From assembly GCF_000732535.1 (NCBI RefSeq), contig NZ_APNK01000006.1:1-64000 (forward strand): a stretch of DNA of 64,000 nt. The letters run 5' to 3'. The position numbers were made by a program, and so were the translations under genes. Shown here one piece after another: positions 7,610 through 62,854 of this stretch; positions within the stretch are counted from its first letter, which is position 1, and the number at the start of each line of letters is the position of its first letter. The DNA comes from Salinisphaera hydrothermalis C41B8. Lineage in GTDB: Bacteria; Pseudomonadota; Gammaproteobacteria; Nevskiales; Salinisphaeraceae. The notes beneath the pieces were generated by a model that did not search any database, was not told the DNA's origin, and saw nothing but the letters and a program-made list of their open reading frames with translations.

Positions 7610-8560
7610 CTAGGTGTGTAAACCCACCACATTGTTCACGTTGAGCCGCAGCCGGCTGATCGGTGGTTGATGGTTCAGGCTGGCATGGGGTCGGTGCCAG
7701 TTGTAGTCATGCAGCCAGTACGGCAGATAGTCAGCGCGCTCATCGGCGTTTTGATAGCCATGGGCATACGCCGATTCGTGTAGCGCCGTCTGAATCCAGC
7801 GCTCGGCCTTGCCGTTGGTCCGCGGCCGGTACGGCCGCGTGCGCTTGTGTTCAAGCCCGAGTCGACGACAGGCGGTGGCAAAGCGCCGGGATTGATAGCA
7901 CGCCCCATTGTCGGTGAGGACGGCCTTGAACTGGACGCCCAAGCGGCGGTAGTAACGCAAGGCGGCGATCAGCGCTCGAACCGCACTGGCGCCGGTCTCA
8001 TCCGGCCAGATGGTGGCATGGGCCACCCGGCTGTGATCGTCGATGGCCATATGGAGGTAGTCCCAGCCGGCACCCCGCGACTTGCCGCGCCGGTCGCCGG
8101 TCACGCGATGACCGGGACGCGCAAAACGATTCACTTTCTTGATGTCCAGGTGCAACCGGTCGCCGGGGGCGTCGTGTTCGTAGCGTCGGACGGGCGGCGC
8201 GGGGTCCCGCGCCGACAATCGATTCAGGCCGCCCCGCTGGAGCACGCGCGCGCCCGTCGCGCGCGGCACGCCGGTCTGACGCGTGAGCGCCGAATAAATA
8301 CGTCGCTGGCGACGGAGACGGCGGATGCGCGCTTGCTGCGCGCCTGAAGTCCGATGCGGGCATCGGTGCGGCCGGCAGCTTCGGTCCCACAACCCCGCCC
8401 AGCCTTCGTTGCGATAGCGCGCCAGCCACTTGTAGACCGTGCGGGGCCTGACCGCCATGGCCTGGGCGACATCGACCGGCCTGAGCCCTTGTTCGCTCAC
8501 ACGATGGACCCGCACGTGTCGACTGTGAACGGTGAGGCACGCATTCTTGTGTGTGTTCAT
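7610..8560 (-). CDS. IS481-family DDE transposase
   Basis: 316 residues. The N-terminal helix-turn-helix part (EQGLRPVDVAQAMAVRPRTV, then KWLARYRNEGWAGLWDRS) precedes a retroviral-type integrase core: first Asp in DRLHLDIKKV, second in AVLTDNGACY, and Glu in RTNGKAERWIQ, with the IS481-typical YNWHRPHASLNHQPP near the end. The start is the ATG at 8560, with GGAGCG just upstream. The stop codon TAG (complement of 7610-7612) lies outside the element proper, in the CCTAGG target duplication; insertion at CTAG supplies it. Confidence 0.92.
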   Translation of the reverse strand: MNTHKNACLTVHSRHVRVHRVSEQGLRPVDVAQAMAVRPRTVYKWLARYRNEGWAGLWDRSCRPHRCPHRTSGAQQARIRRLRRQRRIYSALTRQTGVPRATGARVLQRGGLNRLSARDPAPPVRRYEHDAPGDRLHLDIKKVNRFARPGHRVTGDRRGKSRGAGWDYLHMAIDDHSRVAHATIWPDETGASAVRALIAALRYYRRLGVQFKAVLTDNGACYQSRRFATACRRLGLEHKRTRPYRPRTNGKAERWIQTALHESAYAHGYQNADERADYLPYWLHDYNWHRPHASLNHQPPISRLRLNVNNVVGLHT

Positions 8561-8647: not shown

Positions 8648-8652
8648 CCTAG

Positions 8653-8933
8653 GGCGTGTTGAGGTTTCGTGCGGGTCCGCGCCAAGCGCTGTTTTACGGC
8701 AAGACGAGGCGTAGCGAACGTGGCGTAGTGAACCTACGCGAGAGAGCTATAACGCTGGATTGCCGCAAAACAGCGCTTGTCACTTCGGGTTGGGCCGCCC
8801 ATAAAAAATTAACTAGGGGCGCCCTGCGGTGTTGCGAATCTGGGTCGTGGCACGCCACGACGCGGCGACTCGCGCCTTGCCGGACACGATTTGCGGACGC
8901 CAACGCGGCGCTCGCACCAAACCTCAACACGCC
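8653..8933. repeat. Palindromic CTAG-flanked element, copy A (281 bp)
   Basis: Ends are perfect inverted repeats beginning GGCGTGTTGAGGTTT (8653 on) and its complement ending at 8933 (one mismatch further in), flanked both sides by CTAG (8649-8652 and 8934-8937). No coding frame. Inside: arms GCGCTGTTTTACGGCAA (8686-8702) and its near-complement (8760-8776); a 14-base tandem repeat GGCGTAGCGAACGT / GGCGTAGTGAACCT (8708-8735); and a second hairpin at 8834-8873 around CGTGGCACGCCACG. The same element recurs at 25948-26252 (inverted) and 62553-62845, with a solo end at 9776. It looks like a non-autonomous miniature transposable element. Confidence 0.88.
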
Positions 8934-8946
8934 CTAGGCTGTGTCG

Positions 8947-9710
8947 TCACGAGATCTTAAGCCAGAGGCAGAGACAGGCGATTTGCGCTTGGGCTAGAAA
9001 CGACGACAGTCGTTTCGCGTAGCGTGTGGCCAACCCACGCCAGCGTTTGAGTTGCTCGAATGCGTTTTCGACGAGGTGCCGGTGTTGATACAGCGCGGTA
9101 TCCAACGCGCGCGGTGTTTTACGATGAACGCGCGATGGAATCTGGACATGCATGCCCTGACTCTGGGCGTGCTCGACAATCGCGTTGCTGTCGTAACCTT
9201 TGTCTGCAATCAAATGCTCGGCCTCGACCCCGTGGATCAACTCGTCAGCTTCTGCACAATCCGCTCGGGTACCTGACGTTGTAAGAACTCGGAGCGGCAT
9301 ACCATGCGCATCCACGGCCAGGTGCAGCTTGGTGTTGAGCCCCCTTTTGTACGACCTATCCCGTCATTACCGCCGAGCGCGCCTGCGGCGGCCGCATGCG
9401 CTTTGCAATGGCTGGCATCGATCATCAGCCATTCGAAATCGGGCTCGTCGATCAACACCTCAAGCAGGGCTTCCCAGATCCCGCGATCCCGCCAGCGGCA
9501 AAAGCGTCGATGCGTGTTCTTCCAGTCGCCATAGGTCGGCGGCAAATCACGCCATGGCGACCCGGTGCGTAAAATCCACAGGACCGCATTGACGAATCGG
9601 CGATTATCCCGGGCCACGCCGCCCCATTGGCCGGCGCGGCCGGGCAAGTGGGGCTCAATCAACGCCCACTGATGGTCGGTCAGATCGTGGCGATGTTGGG
9701 CGTCTGACAT
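8947..9710 (-). CDS. IS5-family transposase, made by -1 frameshift
   Basis: The first frame (ATG at 9710; an earlier GTG at 9740 is possible) carries RHDLTDHQWALIEPHLP, the NRRFVNAVLWILRTGSPWRD motif and the first catalytic Asp in WLMIDASHCKAH. It would stop at 9237. The second frame (8947-9315) carries the second Asp in LIADKGYDSNAI and the Glu in LVENAFEQLKRWRGLATRY. Joining at the A-AAA-GGG-GG tract (complement of 9340-9348) by a -1 slip gives RTKGGLNTKLHLAVDAHGMP, exactly the conserved join of IS5-family enzymes. So this is a programmed frameshift and not a broken gene. The full DDE triad is present in the fusion of about 255 residues. Confidence 0.88.
9339..9350 (-). promoter_or_regulatory. 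Programmed -1 frameshift slippery site
   Basis: On the minus strand the tract ACAAAAGGGGGC lets the ribosome slip from ACA-AAA-GGG-GGC to read GGG-CTC next. The -1 frame continues the conserved transposase sequence at once, with no lost residue, which argues for a functional recoding signal. Confidence 0.75.
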
Positions 9711-9775
9711 GCTGTGATCGTCGCTCAGGTGTATCCGCACCCTATGAAAACATATCTCGTGACGACACGCCCTAG

Positions 9776-9801
9776 GGTCTGTTGAGGTTTCGTGCGAGTC
9801 C
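9776..9801. repeat. Solo end of the palindromic CTAG element
   Basis: GGTCTGTTGAGGTTTCGTGC followed by GAGTCC matches the first 26 bases of copies B and C (element type with GTTGAGG ends), preceded by CTAG at 9772-9775. The match stops there and the sequence runs into the 3' end of the next minus-strand gene. It is most simply a deletion remnant or decayed copy. Confidence 0.75.
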
Positions 9802-25911: not shown

Positions 25912-25947
25912 GCGCGACAGGACGCTGCGACGCGGGCTCAGCCCCAG

Positions 25948-26252
25948 GGCATGTTGAGGTTTCGTGCGAGCGCCGCGTTGGCGTCCGCAAATCGTGTCCG
26001 GCAAGGCGCGAGTCTGGGTCGTGGCGTGCCACGACCCAGACTCGCAACGCCGCAGGGCGCCCCTGGTTAATTTTTAATGGGCGGCCCAACCCGAAGGGAC
26101 AAGCGCCCTTAAATTAACGACACGACGGCAATACAGCGTTATAGCTCTCTCGCGTATGTCCACTACGCCACGTTCGCTACGCCTCGTCTTGCCGCCCCTA
26201 GTTAATTTTCAGGGAGCGCTTGGCACGGACTCGCACGAAACCTCAACACGCC
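25948..26252. repeat. Palindromic CTAG-type element, copy B (305 bp, inverted)
   Basis: Same family as copy A but in the opposite orientation. Ends GGCATGTTGAGG (25948) and the complement of GGCGTGTTGAGG (to 26252). The right flank is CTAG, the left flank CCAG. It holds a perfect hairpin with 18-base arms and a 2-base loop (26008-26025 with 26028-26045), longer than in A or C. It fills the space between speE and the convergent gene, and its right CTAG contains that gene's TAG stop. Confidence 0.88.
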
Positions 26253-27305
26253 CTAGCCCAGCGCCTTGGCGAATTCTTTCGAGCCATAGAAATCGGCCAG
26301 CTGGTCGCGCACCAGCGTCTCGAGCAGGCCGGTGTCGGCCAGTCCGGCGATCAGGTCAGGCGCCAGCGCGGCCACTTCGTCGGCCACGACCTGGCGATCG
26401 ATACCGACATGGCCCATCAGCTCGGCCAGCGTATCGTCGCCGTGTCGGGCGAAATACGCCTGCACGCCCTGGTCGATCATAACGCCGAGATATTCGGTCT
26501 CGCGCAGCGAGCGCCAGACCTGCAGGCCATAATCGACCAGCCGCTGGAGCTCGTGCGAGGCCACGGCATCGGCGATGGACAAGGGCTGGTCCGCCATCGC
26601 GGCCCAGATCTCGTCGGCCAGCGCGCGCAGACGGTCGCCGTCCAGTGAATCGAGCAACAACGCTTCAGTACGCGCGAGCGTGCGCGCGGTGTTGGCCTCG
26701 ATATAGGCTTTCACCCGGCTCTCGACCTGTGCCTCGAGGCCCGGCATGCGACGGCTGACCGCACTCGACGACCCTTTGATCAGCCGCGATACGCCTGGGA
26801 TCGACCGAATCGCACCGGAATCCGAAAAAATATAATCCTTGATGCCCTGATACAGCACGTCGGACGCCAGCGCCGTGTAGACCGGGCTTTTCAGCAGACG
26901 CTGGATCAGCCGCACCCGCAGGTTTTCCAGTTCTACCGCCAGCGCCACGCCGTCGTCGAACAACGCCTGATCGATCACGTCGCGTACACGCGTTTCACGA
27001 TTGACGTCGAGCCGTACCAGTTCGTCGGCGATGCTGCCGATGACGGCCGCCAGTTGATCGGGCAGCTCGAGGTCCAGCGCCAGTCGTTCGGCCGCGCCGC
27101 GCACGGTATCGCAATCGATCACCTCGGCCAGCGTGGTGCGTTCGGCCCAATCCCAGAAGGCGTCGACCAGACGCGCCAGCCGCTTATCGCCGCGGCGGCC
27201 GCGCCAGGCCGCCAGCTCATGGGCGACATGGGCTTCGAACAATCGGTCGGCGATATCAGGGCGGGCGGTTTCAGGCATGACGCGGGCATCGATGAGCGTG
27301 GACAT
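26253..27305 (-). CDS. Conserved-looking helical protein of unknown function
   Basis: 350 residues. I do not recognise a family. It is predicted to be almost entirely alpha-helical and acidic, with no signal peptide and no clear membrane span. Recognisable stretches include RLARLVDAFWDWAERTTLAE, LLKSPVYTALASDVLYQGIK and DIIFSD-like KDYIFSDSGAIRSIPGVSRL, then LRETEYLGVMIDQGVQAYFA. The composition and length suggest a cytoplasmic or membrane-associated protein. The stop codon TAG lies in the CTAG flanking palindromic element B, so the insertion abuts the coding end without changing it. Divergent from the csbD-like stress gene. Confidence 0.6.
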   Translation of the reverse strand: MSTLIDARVMPETARPDIADRLFEAHVAHELAAWRGRRGDKRLARLVDAFWDWAERTTLAEVIDCDTVRGAAERLALDLELPDQLAAVIGSIADELVRLDVNRETRVRDVIDQALFDDGVALAVELENLRVRLIQRLLKSPVYTALASDVLYQGIKDYIFSDSGAIRSIPGVSRLIKGSSSAVSRRMPGLEAQVESRVKAYIEANTARTLARTEALLLDSLDGDRLRALADEIWAAMADQPLSIADAVASHELQRLVDYGLQVWRSLRETEYLGVMIDQGVQAYFARHGDDTLAELMGHVGIDRQVVADEVAALAPDLIAGLADTGLLETLVRDQLADFYGSKEFAKALG

Positions 27306-45830: not shown

Positions 45831-45962
45831 ACCGGGCGCTGCAACGAACCAGACGAACAAGAAACTTTATCGGCGATAGCCGGTCGAAGGGTTTGATTTT
45901 TTCGCTAAACAGGCGTGGTGCCGGCACGGACGACAGACCGGTCACGTCATCGAGGGTTGGGA

Positions 45963-47411
45963 ATGCAACACAAGCGCGTGCTACGTGCCGGTGCCGCCGG
46001 CGCGCTCGGTGTAACTTTATGTTTTTGCGGTGGAGCTCAGGCTTCTCCCGGCAAATCCGACAGCACCGGCATCCGCGCTTCCAGCCAACAAAAGACCCAC
46101 CTCGAAATCCAGCCGCTCGCTGCCAATCAGATGCAGGCAGCCAAGGCGCTCGGTCTGATCACGACGCCGCAAATCACCCCCTGGCAACAGATCAGCGTAC
46201 GATCCGGCGATACTCTTTCGGGCGTGTTCTCGCGCGCCGGGCTAGGCGCCTCCCAGTGGCAGAAACTGCTCAAACTGGGCAAGTCGACTGACGCTCTGCG
46301 TCACATTCACCCCGGAGACACGCTGGAAATCCGCAAGACGCCGACGGGGAAACTCGCCGAATTGCGCTATCGATTGAACTCGATCAAGACGCTGCATGTG
46401 AACCGTCGGGGCGGCCGCCTCCAAGCCAGCATCGAGAAGCGCGCGACTCAGACCCGTGAGATCACCGCCACCGGCACGGTGGGCAAATCCTTGTCGCACT
46501 CGATGACCGCCGACGGCGTCCCGGCGAGCGTGGCCGATCAGATGGCCCGGATTTATCGCTATCGTCACAACCTGCGCCATCTACACCCGGGCGACCAGTT
46601 TGCCGTGGTCTATCGCGCAACCTACAGTGACGGGCAACAGATCGCTACCGGGCCGGTGTTAGCCGCCAGTATCACGACCAACCACCATAACTACAAAGCC
46701 TTTCGTGCCAAGGGTGCGAACGGCAACTTCGGTTATTTCGACACCACCGGTACCTCTTACAAGCCGGCCTTCACACGCAAGCCGGTGGCCTATACGCGCA
46801 TTAGCAGCCCCTTCAATCTGCATCGCATGAATCCGGTCACGCATCATGTACGACCGCATAAGGGCGTGGACATGGCCGCGCCCATGGGCACCCCGATCCA
46901 CGCGGCCGCCGAAGGCACAGTCAAATATGCCGGCTGGATGCACGGCTACGGGCGTATCGTCGAGCTCACCAATTTCGACGGTTACAGCACCCGCTACGCT
47001 CATATGCACAAGATCCGTTCGAAGCTGCATGTCGGCGAGCATGTCACCAAGGGTGAGGTGATCGGGTATGTTGGCGAATCCGGCGAAGCAACCGGGCCGC
47101 ATCTGCATTTCGAAATCCGCCGCAACGGCGTGGCTTACAACCCGCTGACCGTGAAGCTACCGGCCGGGCAGTCACTACCGCACAGCGAACTGGCGGCTTA
47201 TACCCATAAGATTCAGCCGCTAATCGCCAAGCTGTCGCCGGCGCCGACTACGCTTCTGGCCAAAACGGCGTCGACCCCGACCAACAACAACAGCTGTACC
47301 CGCGCGGTTTCGCTCAACGCCACCCTGGCGCTGGACCCGGTGGGTGCGGCCCGTCGACACAGCCTAAGCAACATTTTCTGCGTGGTCCGACATCACGCGA
47401 CCAACGCCTAG
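45963..47411 (+). CDS. M23 metallopeptidase of the MepM (YebA) type
   Basis: 482 residues from the ATG at 45963. Signal region AGAAGALGVTLCFCGGAQAS, an OapA/LysM-like domain (QISVRSGDTLSGVFSRAGLG, HIHPGDTLEIRKTPTGKLAE), a second Csd3-like domain (QMARIYRYRHNLRHLHPGDQ), and the M23 catalytic core: HVRPHKGVDMAAPMGTPIHA with His and Asp, and GPHLHFEIRRNG with the HxH pair. It cuts peptidoglycan cross-links in the periplasm during growth. The last 60 residues past the core look disordered. The TAG stop (47409-47411) is part of the CTAG flanking palindromic element D. Confidence 0.9.
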   Translation: MQHKRVLRAGAAGALGVTLCFCGGAQASPGKSDSTGIRASSQQKTHLEIQPLAANQMQAAKALGLITTPQITPWQQISVRSGDTLSGVFSRAGLGASQWQKLLKLGKSTDALRHIHPGDTLEIRKTPTGKLAELRYRLNSIKTLHVNRRGGRLQASIEKRATQTREITATGTVGKSLSHSMTADGVPASVADQMARIYRYRHNLRHLHPGDQFAVVYRATYSDGQQIATGPVLAASITTNHHNYKAFRAKGANGNFGYFDTTGTSYKPAFTRKPVAYTRISSPFNLHRMNPVTHHVRPHKGVDMAAPMGTPIHAAAEGTVKYAGWMHGYGRIVELTNFDGYSTRYAHMHKIRSKLHVGEHVTKGEVIGYVGESGEATGPHLHFEIRRNGVAYNPLTVKLPAGQSLPHSELAAYTHKIQPLIAKLSPAPTTLLAKTASTPTNNNSCTRAVSLNATLALDPVGAARRHSLSNIFCVVRHHATNA

Positions 47412-47676
47412 GGCATGTCGTCATGAGATACCCCGCCGCACCCGCGCCCGTGAGGTGGCAAGACAAGGCCTCGTGAGCGTCGCGTGGCCCGGCCACGGGA
47501 GCGAACGATAACGCCGGATTGCCGGCTCCCGGGCCCGGGCCCTGCGGGTGAGGCCCGCCCACCGCGCCAGGCGGCGTTGCATGCCTTGACCGTGGGCCCG
47601 CCACGCTCGGCGGCATGCGCCTTGCCTGACACGATGGGCGGGCCTCATGCGGTGGCGTCTCTCGTGACAACATGCC
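47412..47676. repeat. Palindromic CTAG-flanked element, type D (265 bp)
   Basis: Ends GGCATGTCGTCATGAGATAC (left) and GGCATGTTGTCACGAGAGAC (right, complement) are flanked by CTAG at 47408-47411 and 47677-47680. The ends resemble those of the IS5-family element at 8938-9771, not those of copies A-C. Yet the core (47457-47524 and 47571-47635) follows copies A-C: GGCAAGAC...GGATTGCCG and GGCGTTGC...GCGCCTTGCC-GACACGAT. No coding frame. A non-autonomous element related to A-C but carrying different termini. Confidence 0.85.
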
Positions 47677-47680
47677 CTAG

Positions 47681-62526: not shown

Positions 62527-62552
62527 TAGGCGCGTGTTCCAATAGGCCCGAG

Positions 62553-62845
62553 GGTCTGTTGAGGTTTCTTGGGAGTCCGCGCCAAGCGCAGTTTTGCGGC
62601 AAGACGAGGCGTAGCGAACGTGGCGTAGTGAACCTACGCGAGAGAGCTATAACGCTGGATTGCCGTCGTGTCGTTAATTCATGGGCGCTTGTCCCTTCGG
62701 GTTGGGCCGCCCATAAAAAATTAACCATGGACGCCCGGCGGCGTTGCGAGTCTGGGGCGTGGCACGCCACGACGCAGCGACTCGCGCCTTGCCGGACACG
62801 ATTTGCGGACGCCAACGCGGCGCTCGCACGAAACCTCAACAGACC
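62553..62845. repeat. Palindromic CTAG-type element, copy C (293 bp)
   Basis: Same orientation and core as copy A (62553-62845), with ends GGTCTGTTGAGG and its complement. The flanks are CGAG (62549-62552) and CCAG (62846-62849), both one base off CTAG. It lies between the convergent beta-helix and PHY-GGDEF genes, 26 and 9 bases from their stops. The tandem 14-base repeat and hairpins GCGTAG/CTACGC (62623-62639) and GCGAGTC/GACTCGC are intact. Confidence 0.88.
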
Positions 62846-62854
62846 CCAGGTCTG

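Follow-up and report, generated by a model that had tools for sequence, protein, structure and literature searches.

The window analyzed here, a 64,000-nt stretch of the Salinisphaera hydrothermalis C41B8 genome, contains an element (D) that shares its interior with three others (A to C) while its ends differ, and in which whole stems appear to have been exchanged without loss of pairing. This raises the question of whether the pairing is selected and what kind of element carries it. The reading we favor, with a probability of roughly 0.6, is that D and A to C belong to a phylum-wide superfamily of non-autonomous transposons that bear the ends of resident insertion sequences (ISs) and a structured core kept by selection, their movement in trans being inferred. 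The MITE-like nature of the elements, the shared core, its kept pairing, the wide spread and the varied ends are solid.

Element D, a whole non-autonomous element, occupies positions 47411 to 47677 of the forward strand and has terminal inverted repeats, with a TA on both flanks inside CTAG. The sequence-only reading had thus found the right locus (47412 to 47676), but the limits lie one base further out on each side. The left repeat, GGGCATGTCGTCATGAGATAC, spans 47411 to 47431 (forward strand), and the right one, GGGCATGTTGTCACGAGAGAC, spans 47657 to 47677 (reverse strand); in other copies, D-type ends read GGGCGTGTCGTCATGAGATACA. The left CTAG of D provides the M23 peptidase gene at 45915 to 47411 with its stop codon, and the open reading frame of D that was tested (47314 to 47673, reverse strand) had no Pfam match. 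The core of D was also present in element A (8652 to 8934, forward strand; A-type ends, GGGCGTGTTGAGGTTTCGTGCG), element B (62552 to 62846, forward strand; ends GGGTCTGTTGAGG) and element C (25947 to 26253, reverse strand; A-type ends). The proposal of a shared core with different ends was therefore borne out, and the finding proved larger than first reported. The ends of A to C are GGGCGTGTTGAGGTTTCGTGCG or close variants of it, unlike those of D; the common ends initially ascribed to all three had to be corrected for B and for the low end of C, which is GGGCATGTTGAGG. The target context of B is CGAG/CCAG, not CTAG. As to the stems that had been named, GCGTGGCCCGGCCACG was indeed found in D against GCGTAG..CTACGC in A to C, and so was GCATGCC/GGCATGC against GCGAGTC/GACTCGC, except that A carries one mismatch in the latter (GCGAATC).

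The different ends of D and of A to C turned out to be terminal repeats common to two groups of IS5-type elements, which makes these elements MITE-like. The window itself contains an IS5-type insertion sequence with D-type ends (8937 to 9772, reverse strand), which touches element A and is a candidate source of transposase for D. Its right end, GGGCGTGTCGTCACGAGATA, is 1 base in 20 off the D-type end of other copies, and its two overlapping frames gave Pfam matches to DUF4096 (PF13340) on 9237 to 9740 and to DDE_Tnp_1 on 8947 to 9315. Used whole as a query, this IS proved to be a single copy in its own genome, matching only itself, and the interior of D is thus not derived from it. Four further DUF4096 matches were found in the same genome. 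All the ends recognized around these matches are A-type: L124 and L125 each belong to an element of ∼860 bp bounded on either side by CTAGGGCGTGTTGAGGTTTC, and L126 has GGGTCTGTTGAGGTTTCG on one side, the opposite end being a variant. No A-type ends were seen for the fourth match (L122). A lone A-type end, GGGTCTGTTGAGGTTTCGTGCGAGTCC, lies at 9775 to 9801, right after the window IS and without a core behind it, and an IS481-type transposase gene is located at 7610 to 8560, near element A.

A MITE is expected to be short and non-coding, with terminal inverted repeats, and to match an autonomous element at its ends. D fulfills the first part of this description (267 nt, with repeats of ∼20 bp), and the D- and A-type ISs of its own genome fulfill the second, with movement being inferred and the comparison of the A-type ISs with the elements covering the ends only. 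Of 171 Salinisphaera elements whose ends were recognized, 98 have a TA on each flank, which indicates target duplication as judged without a comparison with empty sites. Chimeras joining a D end to an A end were observed at G000:C2:93165-93399 (L008), G000:C3:62477-62605 (L014) and G010:C56:31411 (L088). Copies are many in genomes G009 (42 matches to A) and G001 and few in G013, and a search limited to DUF4096 found no such transposase in these three (G009 being one contig).

The core common to both kinds of ends is ∼200 nt long and comprises a hairpin H1, a small hairpin H2 and a hairpin H3. In D, all three on the forward strand, H1 (47441 to 47539, approximate limits) consists of a variable outer stem and an inner unit, GGCAAGACAAGGC ... 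AACGCCGGATTGCC; H2 (47540 to 47548) is CCC TGC GGG; and H3 (47551 to 47645, approximate limits) contains GCGCCAGGCGGCGTTGC ... GCGCCTTGCCTGACACG, roughly the reverse complement of the H1 unit. As a consequence of this complementarity, the covariance model hits almost all elements on either strand, the antisense match in D covering 47444 to 47647 of the reverse strand with 68 bits. In general layout, the variable outer stem of H1 is followed by GGCAA-gacAA-GGC, a stem-loop, AAC-GCC and gga-TTGCC; H2 is CCC-NNN-GGG; and H3 has an outer stem, GGC-GTT, a stem-loop and GCC-TT. Read as a single unit, the bulged hairpin is CAA-GGC[G] ... CAA-CGCC. Among 97 distant cores, CAAGGC was found in 76, GCGTTGC in 64 and GCGCCTTG in 67, and AAC followed by any base and then C or A was found in 89. 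The fold of D was far stronger than those of its dinucleotide shuffles (z scores of −8.58 as RNA and −6.32 as DNA), none of 200 shuffles being as good in either case.

The middle part is longer in B and C than in A. By eye, B and C (62552 to 62846 and 25947 to 26253) apparently have a larger middle hairpin, with arms GTTAATTT..AAATTAAC, in place of part of the outer stems of H1 and H3, which we read, again by eye, as modules swapped with their pairing retained. In the G000 copies, the H2 loop region was either CCCTTCGGG (35 copies) or its reverse complement, CCCGAAGGG (14 copies); both TTC and GAA loops are present among related copies, hinting at occasional loop inversion. No gathering-level Rfam match was obtained in the window, and a known RNA family was discarded; Rfam searches of 11 distant loci gave three tRNAs and two chance-level matches only. 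The boxes of integron attC sites follow the consensus RYYYAAC / GTTRRRY, and the AAC/GTT contexts of the core did not appear to fit it on visual inspection, which was confined to alignments A1 and A4.

These elements are far from confined to the window. The S. hydrothermalis genome (4.28 Mb in 91 contigs) contains 6 further near-full copies of D at 94 to 95% identity, one chimeric copy, several partial ones, at least 40 A-type copies and 208 ends of either type, as counted by pattern. BLAST searches with D gave a match in all 14 Salinisphaera genomes, its own included, and those with A gave one in 16 of 17 genomes of the family. A pattern scan of named genomes yielded at least 80 loci, and those listed were labeled Salinisphaera except for Endozoicomonas sp. 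G2_2 and Lysobacterales bacterium SP48, apparently genomes placed in Salinisphaera (G011 and G007). Two covariance models were built, R1 from the Salinisphaera-family alignment and R2 from 40 diverse cores. In a sample of 369 genomes of the class, R1 matched 94 (74 of 271 genera), 3 of the 94 being Salinisphaera, and its best match in another family reached 155 bits. For its part, R2 gave matches in 132 of the 398 genomes sampled across the phylum; by manual count, 78 of these lie outside the class, in 16 families, one of which accounts for 53, and a match of 177 bits was obtained in another class (G502). As a control, R2 run over the 64-kb window up to an E value of 10 returned only A to D, each on both strands (8 matches). 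Both models were searched within the phylum only, with strict filters and rough E values, and chance may account for the weak matches (E near 1e-4).

Outside chromosomes, two distant members used as queries matched an identical set of 4 among 72,556 plasmid records, and a third matched 2 of those; distant members are thus rare on plasmids (Halomonas, Azotobacter and Pseudomonas), and element D had no match in the plasmid records. Among 50,697 phage records, nothing was found with the one distant member used as a query. On these few queries, phage or plasmid cargo was rejected, the plasmid matches being few and the phage matches none. One query found no match in Escherichia coli genomes, and one exact H3 pattern found none in IMG/VR.

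It had been argued that replacement of whole stems with pairing kept is a mark of selected RNA or single-stranded DNA structure. In an alignment of 48 Salinisphaera-family cores (47 from the genus and one from another genus), both-sided changes were present in 32 of the 47 predicted pairs, and in the 40 diverse cores, they were present in 48 of 57, so the replacement is real. The null model for covariation was home-made, R-scape-like but not R-scape itself; inferred substitutions were placed on the tree at random columns, with a threshold of E ≤ 0.05. With the 40 diverse cores, aligned by sequence alone for this purpose, the test singled out 17 column pairs among 19,701, of which 16 belong to the 57-pair structure, and this places covariation above the phylogenetic background. 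A first test with 118 Salinisphaera copies had given no significant pairs, we think because the two end types diverge deeply, which broadens the null, and the covariation result therefore rests on the wider sample. The criterion for a structured RNA, a conserved structure with significant covariation, was thus met, although not on Salinisphaera alone. In the 40 diverse cores, 92.7% of the cells were paired, versus 70.5% in shuffles and 32 to 43% in slid controls, and 496 cells were changed on both sides, versus 148.9 in shuffles; in these counts, the structure was derived from the very alignment counted.

The timing of the changes pointed in the same direction. Between the closest Salinisphaera copies, stem differences were single and mostly pair breaking, and the ratio of kept double changes to all stem changes rose with distance from 0.000 through 0.028, 0.074, 0.20 and 0.35 up to 0.73, with a slight dip at the largest distances (0.55). 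Similarly, terminal branches carried 82.5 pair-keeping versus 108.5 pair-breaking changes, whereas internal branches carried 78.4 versus 30.8 (averages over 10 parsimony reconstructions; Fisher P value of 2e-6, on rounded averages). Thus, copies decay after insertion, and the continuing lineages are those with intact pairing. This pattern fits selection for spreading or persisting, not for service at each site. The rate of change at paired sites was roughly half that at unpaired sites in either kind of branch (ratios of 0.53 and 0.58), and this would be compatible with a degree of constraint on individual copies as well. Covariation and timing together supported the claim of selected structure, leaving unsettled whether RNA or single-stranded DNA is involved.

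A G-T pair on one strand is an A-C pair on the other, and a structure needed only as double-stranded DNA would therefore give equal counts of both. In H1, G-T pairs outnumbered A-C pairs by 208 to 30 over the 97 distant loci (or 152 to 30 once the pair contributing 56 is left out), with a G-T excess at 80 loci, an A-C excess at 3 and ties at 14. The Salinisphaera H1 gave 112 to 40, its outer stem being even (25 to 25). H3 gave 43 to 35 over the 97 loci, 17 to 32 when three bulge-adjacent pairs were dropped after the fact, and 10 to 27, mostly from one pair, in its inner part in Salinisphaera. The rules used for the structure and the covariance model alignment permit G-U pairs but no A-C pairs on the analyzed strand, which biases the counts toward G-T; yet H3, treated in the same way, showed no excess. 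The excess in H1 and not in H3 indicates that it is probably as a single strand, in the orientation read, that H1 is important. The H3 ratio indicates no strand, so that the notion of a single unit on each strand is inferred from inspecting the sequence. Nor can G-U pairs separate RNA from single-stranded DNA.

Within the reading we favor, the IS5-type terminal repeats, the TA/CTAG targets, the selection on core pairing and the constancy of the core under host-varying ends are shown or strongly supported, while the mechanism is inferred. The transposase of any resident element with matching ends would move D- and A- to C-like elements in trans, and the ends would have been replaced, or would have drifted, many times while transposases came and went. 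Less surely, and without binding data, the core may be the site bound by a factor, of the host or related to the element, that reads a folded single strand, which could be either single-stranded DNA during replication or nascent RNA. With two inverted copies of the bulged unit, either strand would show one correctly folded unit near its 5′ end, whatever the direction of insertion. Selection would then decide which copies found new lineages and not the fate of each inserted copy.

Bacterial MITEs are usually described as families defined by their ends, the interior being a leftover. The family of D reverses this picture over much of the phylum, with an interior that is conserved and selected and ends that are replaceable. 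It could be used to test how non-autonomous elements outlast the transposases on which they depend, and it provides a candidate structured nucleic acid absent from Rfam 15. No paper describing this core was found in the open literature, most subscription journals being outside our coverage. Among known systems, MITEPsy1 of Pseudomonas syringae resembles D in being short and non-coding, with repeats near-identical to those of a resident IS and a CTAG/YTAA target, but it is 100 nt long, and the accessible part of its report describes no conserved structured core with varying ends (PMC3189936). According to the same partial text, well-conserved copies occur only in P. syringae pathovars, with weaker similarity in other Gammaproteobacteria, and MITEPsy1-like sequences are suggested to be possibly widespread. 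QMITE1 and QMITE2 of Coxiella are, like D, multicopy, strongly folding MITEs often placed at the 3′ ends of genes, and some are transcribed; unlike for the core of D, no orthologues of QMITE1 were found elsewhere by the authors, and QMITE2 carries a GTAG REP, with no core common to other MITE families being described in the sections available (PMC5896051). The Tn3-derived TIMEs are also miniature, non-autonomous and bounded by terminal repeats, but these are of the Tn3 type, and no shared structured core is described in what could be consulted of that work.

Genomic context was studied, with home-made gene calls and without computing a formal expectation, in the 81 elements whose flanks reached 600 bp on either side. 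Seventy-seven were intergenic, 3 lay within gene calls and 1 lay at an edge; facing gene 3′ ends lay within 30 bp in 47 of 81 cases, versus 20 of 73 for 5′ ends. The alternative that survives best, although we consider it unlikely, is that of a host-useful RNA, in which read-through transcripts use the hairpins for processing, stabilizing or two-way termination and hosts retain the elements. It would account for the intergenic location and the proximity of 3′ ends, and it is compatible with the strong fold, with the G-T preference of H1 and with the neighborhoods in the S. hydrothermalis genome (9 convergent, 10 tandem and 3 divergent), where B, C and D lie between convergent genes. However, no excess of convergent genes was observed over all genomes (21 convergent, 39 tandem and 17 divergent; 1, 12 and 8 in G009), no promoter-like site and only one weak terminator-like match (0.4 expected by chance) were found around D, and broken pairs build up in individual copies. 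Moreover, CTAG holds a stop codon and could alone place insertions beside 3′ ends. Two narrower candidates were also discarded: a terminator or insulator between convergent genes, hinted at by B, C, D and the own genome (9 of 23) but not upheld over the 81 elements, and a small RNA gene, in the absence of a promoter-like site around D.

A further possibility, rather doubtful, is that the core is a single-stranded DNA signal for a REP-type (HUH) transposase, that is, a REPIN-like pair of hairpins inside DDE-type ends, for which there are no HUH data. In E. coli, the REP transposase binds the folded single-stranded REP and not its inverse, and REP has a conserved AA-GC mismatch bulge, as far as the part of the report available indicates (PMC8266576). 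The unit found here has an unpaired AA beside GGC[G]/CGCC, and its two inverted units are arranged as in paired REPs. REP, BIME and REPIN sequences thus share with the core of D paired inverted hairpins, a bulge beside the inner stem and, on the same partial source, strand-specific recognition of the single strand (PMC8266576). In contrast, the units here are longer than REPs, and no GTAG tag was identified by eye beside H1. REPs measure 20 to 40 bp, by the portion of PMC3733652 available, are GTAG tagged and depend on HUH enzymes, whereas D has ∼270 nt, DDE-type ends and TA targets.

Pairing could also be kept without any structural selection if template switching or arm-to-arm gene conversion kept the arms of a palindrome complementary. 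The occurrence of the H2 loop and its reverse complement among related copies is what switching could make, the chimeric ends reveal recombination and the covariation test was negative in Salinisphaera alone. Correction in one step, however, would give double changes first, while single, mostly broken ones were observed first and doubles late, and broken pairs concentrate on terminal branches. Unpaired and bulge-flanking motifs are conserved as well (CAAGGC in 76 of 97 and GCGCCTTG in 67 of 97), and the G-T excess of H1 would not be expected from repair of double-stranded DNA. Such correction as the whole explanation therefore appears quite improbable.

The ends proved to vary widely among hosts. 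Ends were found in 94 of the 97 distant loci and formed 26 single-linkage clusters, one of 63 members (GGGCCTGTT...) and the others of 1 to 4; these include duplicates due to offset, truncation and close variants, and about 13 end types were distinguished by eye. Examples of unlike ends are AGAGCCTGTCTATGAATAAATC, GGGAAACACTGATTGATG, TGTCCCGTCTGGCTAATTCG and GTACTCCGTCCAGGCATTATT. The distance from core to end was 29 to 38 nt on the left and 32 to 40 nt on the right in 89 of the 94 loci. As a tentative extension that we would not rate above a possibility, the core may be an ancient folded single-stranded module, a chassis with exchangeable ends, that persisted across Pseudomonadota by donning the ends of successive, unrelated transposase systems and that presents a single bulged hairpin to a host factor on the exposed strand, whichever that is.

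The end TGTCCCGTCTGGCTAATTCG occurs at 13 sites of genome G441. Two of these bound the core-bearing element L436, and the remaining ones correspond to core-less palindromes of 45 to 51 bp at five places (L433, L434 and L441 of one kind, and L435 and L440 of another) and to single ends. That the core itself is mobile and inserts in the middle of palindromes, the "ends" being its target sites, is suggested by the many dissimilar ends and by these core-less palindromes with identical ends, but is very improbable given the nearly constant distance from core to end, the absence of a close facing pair among the 100 listed of the 208 end sites of the S. hydrothermalis genome and the explanation of the core-less forms as deletions. 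The junctions of these forms fall at CGA and TGGCT repeats found in L436, and each form has one full and one truncated end; we thus read them as deletions that later multiplied. Against the reading of D and A to C as transposons with a selected core stands the fact that, since the core-less forms multiplied, the core is dispensable in cis for multiplication in G441. One of the single ends, L444, was considered as part of an IS and discarded, its two main open reading frames being a ferrochelatase and a sulfate transporter. The G441 palindromes resemble microhomology deletions that spread.
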